Assembly: GCF_032463525.1 (NCBI RefSeq)
Contig: NZ_CP135971.1
Coordinates: forward strand, 3,782,001-3,846,000
Direction of reading: 5' to 3'
Source: Pseudomonas sp. DTU_2021_1001937_2_SI_NGA_ILE_001
Lineage (GTDB): Bacteria > Pseudomonadota > Gammaproteobacteria > Pseudomonadales > Pseudomonadaceae
DNA: 64,000 bases
Part shown: one piece after another, positions 30,463-56,565 of the stretch
Layout: the number at the start of each line of letters is the position of its first letter
Numbering within the stretch: position 1 is the stretch's first letter
Made by a program: the position numbers and the translations under genes
The notes under the pieces: generated by a model
Databases searched by the model: none
Seen by the model: the letters and a program-made list of their open reading frames with translations, nothing else
Told to the model about the DNA's origin: nothing

Positions 30463-30593
30463 CGATTGGCTCGCAAGGCCGATCATGCTCCTATGTTGTG
30501 TTAAGTGTTGGCAGATATCCGGATCCCGCCCTGAGGGTCCGGACCTTGGACCCCGAACTTCCCCCTCCCCATATGAAGTCCGGGGTTTTTTTT
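30463..30593 (+). ncRNA. ersA: Spot 42/ErsA-like small RNA
   Basis: The locus between polA and engB encodes Spot 42 in enterobacteria and ErsA in Pseudomonas. Here the interval ends with a clear intrinsic terminator: ACCCCGAAC (30550-30558) pairs with GTCCGGGGT (30578-30586) with one mismatch, followed by eight T. The loop carries a pyrimidine-rich stretch CTTCCCCCTCCCC, an accessible seed able to pair with Shine-Dalgarno regions, as known for ErsA. An AlgU-like promoter lies upstream. The 5' end is inferred from that promoter. Synteny and structure support the call; I cannot align it to a reference. Confidence 0.7.
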
Positions 30594-30694
30594 GTCCTGA
30601 AAATGTCGCCAACCAGGCTGCAACCGTTCCCGCAGCCTTGCCTGATGTTGGCTCGCGACCTCTCGCAAAGGCGTTTCCATTCAGCCGGTGCTGC

Positions 30695-42424: not shown

Positions 42425-43130
42425 CCGGCTGACTTGAGGCTTTCCACGAAATACGGCGGTATGGCCGGCTTTCATGGAGCGCCTGAAGAACCGGGGCACT
42501 GGACCGTTTCTTTATTCGACGTTGCACGACCCGAGGAGGGTGCGTGCATGACCAGGGGGCCGGGATGCACTGACCGATCGGGGTCGGTGCGACCTAGGGG
42601 CACAGGGAGTGCCTCCGATGAGGGCCGGGTCAGGTGAAGCCGCCATGCCAGTCTCGACGCCAGCCAGACGCCCGGACCCGCATGGCGCTTTTTATTGCGT
42701 TGCATCCCGCCTCTGGCAGCCCTGACCAGCCGCTCTGCAGCGACCGTATGTCTGGCAACGGCGGAAATGATCGGTGTGCGACCATTACAAGACGTGTCAG
42801 AACTCAACCCCTCTATTGCCCTGCCAATACGACGTAGTAGCCACCTTTCGGCCATATCAGCCATCTCTTGCAGACTTTTCTCACTCCCTTTCGTCGGTTT
42901 TCCTATGCTGATTCGGCATGACTTAGGCCGATATGGCATTAGACGCATTTGGCCGTCGCCTGAATAGTTGCGCCTTTTTTTCGCCTGCTACTGAGCCGGG
43001 ATGCTCATTTGCGGTGACTTTCCGTAGGCCGTCCGGGACTGCTGACCACACGTTCGACCCTGCTGCGGAGCCAGCCAGGGCGTGCCGGGTCCCCGAACGA
43101 CCCAAGGCAGTTCGCACAGGGGTAATGACA
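42425..43130. other. 706-base gap between the Ivy-like gene and gltP
   Basis: No convincing protein gene. Short frames on both strands lack ribosome sites and have shifting composition. The first 270 bases are GC-rich and strongly structured (see the candidate ncRNA). Bases 42780-42960 are AT-richer. The last 100 bases lead into the gltP ribosome site AGGGG. Confidence 0.6.
42530..42694 (+). ncRNA. Candidate structured small RNA upstream of gltP
   Basis: Two adjacent hairpins, 42567-42590 (GCACTGACC with GGTCGGTGC) and 42597-42615 (GGGGCAC with GTGCCTC, loop AGGGA), lie between two copies of GGGCCGGG. They are followed by a stem GCCATGC/GCATGGC (42642-42648 with 42680-42686) and a TTTTTATT tail, which looks like an intrinsic terminator with a large loop. 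Six GGA motifs occur from 42476 to 42676, one in a hairpin loop as ACAGGGA, close to an RsmA/CsrA site. The 5' end is not defined and no good promoter was found. This is inference from structure only. Confidence 0.35.
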
Positions 43131-55494: not shown

Positions 55495-55629
55495 TCGAGC
55501 GTGACCCCGCTGCCACAGCTGGCAGGATCAGTAAATGCTGGGTGGCGGTCGCACACACCTCGGTAGCCGGCCTGTGGTGGGACCGGCTTTAGCCGCAATA
55601 CAGGTCAGTTAAGAGCTCTTCGGCTTTTT

Positions 55630-55722
55630 GTTGGAGCTTGCTCGCGAACAGGTCAGCAAACCCCATGCATCTGCTGTGAACGTGACGCAGCTATCGCGAG
55701 CAAGCTCGCTCCCACGGTCTGA
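55630..55722. repeat. Extended REP pair (GAGCAAGCTCGCTCC family)
   Basis: GTTGGAGCTTGCTCGCGAA at 55630 and its inverted mate at 55693-55715. The flanks at 55673-55722 are shared with 26203-26252, and 55666-55680 is shared, inverted, with the spacer of the other REP family at 44564. Confidence 0.8.
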
Positions 55723-55849
55723 TCAGTATTGGGTTTACATGCGCAATTGGATTACCCAGCAGGCACAGCTGGGGCTTGCAGAAGAAAAGAGCAATGCATG
55801 AGCGTCTGGCAAGCTATTTGACGGGTGCCTGTGCAGTTGCTTTCCTCGA

Positions 55850-55877
55850 ACCCCGCTGCCAAAGCCGGCAGCGGGGT
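55850..55877. terminator. Hairpin after the DUF3077-like gene
   Basis: ACCCCGCTGCC and GGCAGCGGGGT form an 11-bp perfect stem with a six-base loop. It lies 30 bases after the stop of the minus-strand gene. No T-run. Confidence 0.6.
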
Positions 55878-55907
55878 CATCCGAAACACACAAGCGGCCT
55901 GTAGGGA

Positions 55908-56165
55908 TCAGGCCGTCACTTCTTCCTCGGGCTCGACAGCCCGCGTGGGCCACTGGTCCAGAGTCTGGTTCAGCGCCAGTTGCGCTTGGGTGATCAAGTG
56001 CATGCTGGCCATGGCCAGGTGACGCGCCTGGCCATGCAGGCTTTCAGCGCTTTCATAGGCTGTAGCAGTGGCGCAGTTGAGCAACTCCACGGCATGGGCC
56101 ACACGACATTCGAGCAGGACAAGGGACGATTCGAGGTTGGGTGGATCGGGGACGATCTTTTTCAT
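55908..56165 (-). CDS. Small DUF3077/DUF6124-like protein
   Basis: An 85-residue protein, MKKIVPDPPNLESSLVLLEC at the N-terminus, mainly one long helical segment (VAHAVELLNCATATAYESAE and on) and an acidic end EPEEEVTA. The MKK-x-x-PDPP start and the helix resemble the DUF3077/DUF6124 family found in many copies in pseudomonads; this one lacks the usual middle part. TGGAG precedes the ATG. The function is unknown. It has a 227-base, highly structured leader with an internal terminator. Confidence 0.7.
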   Translation of the reverse strand: MKKIVPDPPNLESSLVLLECRVAHAVELLNCATATAYESAESLHGQARHLAMASMHLITQAQLALNQTLDQWPTRAVEPEEEVTA

Positions 56166-56392
56166 GGCTACAGCTCCAGTGAGAGGACAGGAGCCGACAC
56201 CCATTGCTACCAAACGCCGGGTGGCGGCCGCACGCAAGTTGGTAGAACCGGTCACTGGCGCCCGGTGCGTCCGAAGACGCCATGCGCACGGCCACCATAA
56301 ACGCAGGCCGTAAAAAAGCGCCTCGCAACAGACGGCGCCTTGCGACAGTGAGGATCGGGTCTACCAAACCCGGTCGCTGAATGGGCAGCGAC
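56166..56392 (-). ncRNA. Candidate cis-regulatory leader RNA of the DUF3077-like gene
   Basis: Read on the minus strand, elements follow in order. Hairpin 1 is GTCGCTG/CAGCGAC (56392-56373). Hairpin 2 is CGGGT/ACCCG with loop TTGGTAG (56372-56356). An intrinsic terminator AAGGCGCC/GGCGCTTT with six T follows at 56341-56312. Next come a GCGTC-TTCG-GACGC tetraloop hairpin (56280-56267), a CTACCAA element (56245-56239) and a second TTTGGTAG (56214-56207), then the ribosome site. The CTACCAA element can pair with either TTGGTAG copy, which gives alternative folds. This is the layout of an attenuator or riboswitch-like leader. No known riboswitch class was recognised. Confidence 0.45.
56312..56341 (-). 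terminator. Intrinsic terminator inside the leader
   Basis: On the minus strand AAGGCGCC pairs with GGCGCTTT (one G-U) around an 11-base loop and is followed by more T. It lies 147 bases before the ATG of the small gene and 225 bases after the vanR stop, so it could end vanR transcripts as well as act in attenuation. Confidence 0.6.
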
Positions 56393-56398
56393 GGGGGC

Positions 56399-56427
56399 AG
56401 GTTAGAAGCCTGAATTCACGGGCACAA
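56399..56427 (-). promoter_or_regulatory. Possible promoter of the leader RNA
   Basis: TTGTGC (56427-56422), 17 bases, TAACCT (56404-56399), placing the start at the first hairpin of the leader. The -10 is weak (three of six), so this is tentative. Confidence 0.35.
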
Positions 56428-56565
56428 GCGGCCGGGATTCTCTCGGAAATGTCCTTCAAGAGAAAGAGAGGCGTCTTGCAATCACGGGCCGAACCCGCCG
56501 CGATGACACTGTGTTGAGCGGGCTAGCTTGCGAAAAGGTCGGTCAGCCCCCCCCCCCCGGCCCAC

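Follow-up and report, generated by a model that had tools for sequence, protein, structure and literature searches.

What kind of RNA stands in front of a small gene in the window (the whole stretch of Pseudomonas DNA analyzed, 64,000 nt), and on what does it act? A first-pass annotation of the letters had noticed, on the minus strand, two hairpins, copies of TTTGGTAG, a terminator with a T6 run, a UUCG-capped hairpin, a CTACCAA element and a −35/−10 pair, and a check of the sequence found every one of them at the positions given. It had proposed a controlling RNA of a class that it could not name, folding in alternative ways around the terminator. We conclude instead that the locus is very probably a self-contained C4 antisense cassette acting on its own DUF6124 message.

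The C4 RNA, its target block and the gene behind them

Scanning the window with all Rfam families gave the class a name: the C4 antisense RNA (RF01695) and the c4-a1b1 block (RF03163) both exceed their gathering scores, and the elements first listed together are split over these two families (table 1). The C4 match covers the whole model (positions 1–87 of 87), and the GGW motif described in PMC5320573 lies within GTTTATGGTGG, with which the RNA starts. The isrK family (RF01394) reached 31.7 bits in the same scan of the window, below its cut-off of 50. Element letters follow the C4 literature, as used in the relevant part of PMC5320573, and were assigned by position, a′ being CTACCAA and b′ the apical loop. 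Both a′ and b′ have complementary sites on either side of C4, b1 being the weakest, and b2 lies over the ribosome-binding site of the small gene; this match between the apical loop and the Shine-Dalgarno region had gone unnoticed in the first-pass annotation, which saw only the a set.

The gene itself had been described as DUF3077-like. It belongs to DUF6124: PF19619 (43 bits, cut-off 27) is the sole Pfam family listed for its protein up to E 1, and DUF3077 (PF11275, cut-off 21 bits) gave no match for this protein up to that value and none in the genome. Comparison of its predicted structure returned nothing at E 0.001 or better in the PDB or a viral library, and the predicted two-helix hairpin is too plain for a function to be read from the fold.

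Table 1. Features of the window cassette and its surroundings (positions in the window)
Feature	Position	Strand	Basis
Conserved upstream block of cassette, reaching into the −35 element	56425..56490	-	Shared DNA and pattern match
Putative promoter: −35 TTGTGC (56427-56422), 17-nt spacing, −10 TAACCT (56404-56399)	56399..56427	-	Sequence only
c4-a1b1 target block (RF03163), hairpins 1 and 2	56352..56405	-	58.0 bits, gathering score 46.7
Hairpin 1	56392-56373	-	Sequence
Hairpin 2, with TTTGGTAG in its loop	56372-56356	-	Sequence
a1 TTTGGTAG, loop of hairpin 2	56361..56368	-	Complement of a′
b1 TCACTG	56346..56351	-	6-nt complement of C4 apical loop; weak alone (175/2000 shuffles)
Intrinsic-terminator-like stem and T6	56312..56338	-	Sequence; T run at this place in a minority of paralogues
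C4 antisense RNA (RF01695)	56217..56302	-	67.2 bits, gathering score 45; covariation
UUCG-capped hairpin of C4	56267..56280	-	Sequence
C4 apical loop with b′ CCAGTGA (56258-56252)	56252..56261	-	7-nt complement of b2
a′ CTACCAA	56239..56245	-	Exact complement on both sides
a2 TTTGGTAG	56207..56214	-	Complement of a′
b2 TCACTGG (56182-56176), overlapping Shine-Dalgarno GGAG (56177-56174)	56174..56182	-	Complement of b′
DUF6124 gene, 85 residues, predicted two-helix hairpin	55908..56165 (with stop)	-	PF19619, 4.2e-11; model mean pLDDT 82.5
Extra DNA between vanB and GntR gene, containing the cassette	55495..56565	.	Junction of about 21 nt in most other loci compared

The cassette extends beyond its putative promoter. 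Position 56490 is where the DNA common to the window cassette and two other copies starts, and the pattern TTTCCGAGARAATCCCGGCCGCTTG (56449-56425), searched with up to three mismatches, has nine matches in the genome, all nine immediately upstream of a C4 (control, 0); the cassette includes this block as well. The extra segment further contains a REP-like repeat behind the DUF6124 gene (55584-55737), with more than 15 similar places in the genome, and, at its edge beside the GntR stop codon, a run of 12 G (56547-56558) that could be an assembly or slippage spot. Elsewhere in the window, Rfam matches above cut-off were obtained on the plus strand for Pseudomon-1/ErsA RNA (30485-30601, 129.3 bits) and ivy-DE RNA (42549-42640, 96.2 bits).

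Pairing and codes across cassettes

At the window locus taken alone, shuffled sequences show how often an exact match as long as the observed one arises by chance. For the CTACCAA stretch, the 8-nt upstream match was equalled in 0 of 2000 shuffles and the 7-nt downstream match in 14 of 2000; for the apical loop, the 6-nt upstream match was equalled in 175 of 2000 and the 7-nt downstream match in 46 of 2000. The observed duplex energy was reached for CTACCAA in 2 of 500 shuffles upstream and 49 of 500 downstream, and for the apical loop in 35 and 21 of 500. Because of these frequencies, the b matches at this one locus being close to chance level, single-locus support for pairing is moderate, and it is the comparison of cassettes that provides strong support. 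In the lowest-energy structure predicted for the entire leader, C4 is base-paired to leader sequence, so that a free C4 may depend on processing.

The comparison covers 166 cassettes. This genome contributed 13 and three others 52, 39 and 35; the remaining 27 come from as many further species, each being the best-scoring match of its genome, and for that reason favor well-kept copies. Seven of 133 C4 matches, those below the cut-off, were left out of the fetched cassettes. In 150 of the 166, the same 7-nt word of C4 is exactly complemented both upstream and downstream (downstream in 155, upstream in 156), and 37 distinct a words are used. As a control, C4s were combined with flanks from cassettes of their genome that use a different word, and a both-side complement was found in 25 of 2662 cases. 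Cognate elements pair better than non-cognate ones at each of the four site types in each of the four genomes (0 of 5000 permutations every time); these tests, like the energy tests below, took 13/13, 46/52, 35/39 and 31/35 cassettes, namely those with a start codon 25–80 nt behind C4 and a loop of 8–18 nt. Two-sided change was seen at 17 of 29 predicted C4 stem pairs among the 13 paralogues of this genome, and the a elements covary in their 37 versions, so that the conserved regulatory RNA first proposed withstands the refuting condition set for it, a lack of conservation or of compensatory changes. A further case is provided by L056 and L064, which come from two genomes and share both flanks: their a′ elements differ, and each matches its own a1 and a2 (the 30 flank-sharing pairs were defined by BLAST of both flanks and are not all true orthologues). 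Of 150 cassettes whose start is usable, 136 have a predicted loop duplex that overlaps positions −11 to −7, the ribosome-binding region. These patterns suggest that the C4 antisense RNA probably blocks the small gene behind it.

The earlier proposal was of another kind: as an attenuator, CTACCAA would pair alternately with the two TTGGTAG elements of the same RNA and thereby decide between termination and read-through. Such pairing is possible, since a1 and a2 are both exact complements of the single CTACCAA, as had been noted, and a T6 terminator lies between them. However, a run of at least five T in the 75 nt before C4, admittedly a crude test, occurs in only 3/13, 15/52, 10/39 and 5/35 cassettes of the four genomes, so that the terminator is not general, and yet 150 of 166 cassettes retain their a elements on either side of C4. 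Attenuation also leaves the match with the ribosome-binding region unexplained. We consider it very unlikely and have set it aside on account of the missing T runs: with fewer than one-third of the checked cassettes carrying one, an antisense RNA that targets the message of its own cassette is a better reading of the locus than a leader that switches around a terminator.

In the start-filtered set, every cassette has its own a/b combination within its genome (13/13, 46/46, 35/35 and 31/31). The a words recur (five words in the 13 cassettes here), and a′ alone does not insulate because such words are shared between cassettes: the own downstream a site is strictly the best in only 1/13, 18/46, 14/35 and 9/31. 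Loops are almost never shared, with 30 different ones in 31 cassettes of one genome and all different in the other three. Restoring the cassettes removed by the start filter, and thus comparing all 139 of the four genomes, revealed two within-genome pairs that share both elements, L137/L138 and L156/L164, and one copy of each pair (L137, L164) has lost its start codon; in five of the 139 (L098, L123, L137, L138, L175), no a element was found, and a fixed C4 stretch was compared instead. The tandem neighbors L138 and L148 have identical genes (by rounded identity) and different a′ and b′. Selection for insulation between codes is likely rather than proven, as such cases are few. When partners are ranked on summed duplex energies, 12/13, 40/46, 31/35 and 29/31 C4s have their own target as the sole best one, but in the other direction only 10/13, 32/46, 22/35 and 26/31 targets have their own C4 in that rank; duplex energies are thus an imperfect sorter of cognate pairs.

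Copies, distribution and insertion site

The first-pass annotation had suspected a multicopy family, and the genome indeed holds 13 C4 matches that exceed the cut-off, of which two lie on a second contig of 97,862 bases, along with ten c4-a1b1 matches, seven above cut-off. All 11 DUF6124 matches of the genome have a C4 within 450 nt upstream. The remaining two of the 13 cassettes (L010, L011) precede Bro-N proteins, and the one of these scanned against PHROGs matches families named anti-repressor; an antirepressor target is true of P1/P7 and lies outside the Rfam model, and the window gene encodes a DUF6124 protein, not a phage antirepressor. The N-termini of the two Bro-N proteins (INPNPP, INPNAP) resemble the VPDPP start of DUF6124 proteins. 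Three cassette proteins in all were compared with PHROGs, the other two giving weak matches of unknown function, and none of three tried matched NCBIfam.

Across the four genomes, a C4 was found within 450 nt upstream of 11/11, 27/29, 26/32 and 35/41 DUF6124 matches, leaving 14 of 113 for which none was found; the corresponding counts for DUF3077 are 2/2, 5/6 and 5/6. With the DUF6124 profile, 1334 of 7993 candidates scored match at E 0.001, and the organism names visible among the 120 matches listed are Pseudomonas. In ten other species (L026, L027, L032, L035, L038, L039, L042, L045, L051 and L052), C4 is followed by a 52- to 54-residue protein of one kind, such as MHALNPSKIRAAAHRAMALAALHANSSLATRL..., and the one member scanned had no Pfam match.

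C4 is widespread in the genus: a match was obtained in 54 of 59 Pseudomonas genomes, the present one among them, and 53 have one that exceeds the cut-off. At E 0.001, the median is 14 matches per genome and the maximum 54, with at least ten in 37 of the 59, under stricter filters and with at most 61 candidates scored per genome. Outside the genus, C4 was found in 17 of 273 other genomes of the class (1–6 copies each, at most 15 candidates scored) and in 14 of 114 other genomes of the order (1 to 6 copies, at most 34 candidates scored), some genomes being common to both samples. Before cassettes of two other species (L044, L059, L074, L153, L159 and others), close variants of a different promoter-upstream block, CCTACAACTACGCCAGAATCCGCCGGCTTGTG, recur, which suggests shared transcriptional control within a lineage.

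In 26 loci printed from other genera, the genes after C4 were judged by eye to include some for small helical proteins and others for antirepressor-like and primase-like ones, as is seen in phages and satellites. These neighbors might make the cassettes functionless remnants of decayed phages or satellites, the more so as L137 and L164 are without a start codon and L174, L068 and L121 look truncated by eye. This reading is nevertheless very unlikely, because exact complementarity is preserved on both sides in most cassettes, is kept in L056/L064 while a′ changes, and because 111 of the 113 DUF6124 matches have no internal stop codon.

The cassette also seems to be mobile. A search among relatives gave no orthologous site of the cassette itself, and the site was therefore compared through neighborhoods of the GntR gene. 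In 74 of 80 loci around relatives of this gene, vanB lies convergent beside it (one of the two genes was unmatched in the other six), and the gap between them is 11 to 77 nt, typically 21, in 70 loci, 138 and 191 nt in two, and anomalous (−675) in one. A gap of 1070 nt occurs only in L224, a near-identical Pseudomonas assembly (98% identity to the window over 3 kb), which is also the one locus of the 80 with a C4. By parsimony, the window cassette is a gained unit, which either arrived as a segment of about 1.07 kb or came along with one. The stretch that it shares with the two second-contig copies measures about 580 bp, starts at the upstream block and ends shortly after the stop codon, with 82–83% identity. 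Similar DNA was found in three plasmid records, in two of them over the whole cassette. Among virus contigs, 58 loci were retrieved, one by the window protein and 57 by another DUF6124 protein; 57 of them have at least 250 nt upstream, and in 49 of these, C4 ends within 150 nt of the gene, whereas it lies roughly 500 nt upstream in the other eight. Some neighbors in three printed virus-contig loci are, by eye, what we take to be Mu-type head genes. A phage collection searched by tblastn with the protein and by blastn with the cassette gave no match.

An alternative reading is an addiction cassette of the type I toxin–antitoxin kind, in which DUF6124 would be harmful and C4 its RNA antitoxin, and this would explain both the distinct codes and the multicopy spread. 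The cassettes are short and carry a single gene, codes are rarely shared within a genome, and both the plasmid records and the C4–DUF6124 units in virus contigs fit. Type I toxins are typically small and hydrophobic, however, and the DUF6124 protein, predicted to be a two-helix hairpin, seems unlike them, so that we hold this reading to be unlikely. A still less likely proposal is that the library of C4 cassettes is an RNA-based immunity repertoire: a resident C4 would silence any copy that shares its a/b code and arrives on a phage, plasmid or satellite, only new codes would establish, which would drive diversification, and DUF6124, DUF3077 and Bro-N proteins would be the effectors released.

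Proposed mechanism and known systems

From the parts, their complementarity and covariation, the distinct codes and the extra DNA at the site, all legible in the sequence, we infer the following course for a cassette that controls its own message. One promoter would give a single transcript in which the DUF6124 message is preceded by C4 and the a1/b1 block. C4 would adopt its three-stem form and probably be cut out of the transcript, as RNase P does in phage P1 according to passages of the sources for these phage facts (PMC5320573, PMC8198154, PMC12197685). It would then pair with the message behind at two places: a′ would bind a2, and b′ in the apical loop would bind b2, covering the Shine-Dalgarno sequence, and accumulated C4 would shut off DUF6124 translation. 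Both sites recur in the upstream a1/b1 block, which could titrate C4 and set a threshold; in cassettes that have a terminator behind this block, like the present one, the block could form a short RNA that serves as a sponge. Since C4 and target share one transcript, a pulse of output would be expected on promoter firing, or on arrival of the cassette in a cell that lacks its C4, and the a/b combinations, nearly always different within a genome, should insulate the copies in the cell.

The RNA class is known. C4 was earlier predicted in Pseudomonadales by Weinberg and co-workers, as cited in PMC5320573, and a table of PMC2864571 gives its range as Proteobacteria and phages. In the open literature, searched by titles and the beginnings of abstracts, we found neither a description of C4 cassettes before DUF6124 or DUF3077 genes nor a genus-wide use of C4 in privately coded, mobile cassettes. 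The interest of the locus lies in this multicopy, privately coded and mobile use of C4 in Pseudomonas, which would make a textbook phage antisense RNA a chromosomal format of gene control with up to dozens of uses per cell. Up to about 50 parallel RNA pairs per cell would amount to a natural experiment on how short antisense codes coexist free of cross-talk, and two families of small proteins of unknown function, DUF6124 and DUF3077, would gain a testable regulatory logic.

Several known systems resemble the cassette in part. In the description given in PMC4825925, the isrK–orf45–anrP locus of prophage Gifsy-1 shares with it a terminated short leader RNA, a read-through message and an antirepressor-like gene, but the window's isrK match remains below the family cut-off. 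The seqA–CI RNA–seqC system of phage P4, compared by description only (same source), likewise relies on an antisense RNA that is released by processing of an untranslated transcript and has sequences complementary to it on either side, and differs in causing premature termination before the replication genes. The likeness to C4 of P1/P7 extends to both covariance models, the antisense elements and targets located at and upstream of the ribosome-binding site; here, however, the target is DUF6124 rather than an antirepressor operon, and the genome holds 13 copies, mostly on the large contig. The closest multicopy precedent is that of the Group 1 C4-like sRNAs of Acinetobacter baumannii AB5075, for which the corresponding part of PMC5320573 reports 21 copies in one bacterial genome, a variable antisense loop and an RNA-seq processing pattern at the GGW motif. 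That account leaves their targets open, as transcripts of incoming phages or of the host, whereas here, each copy precedes its own gene with matching elements.
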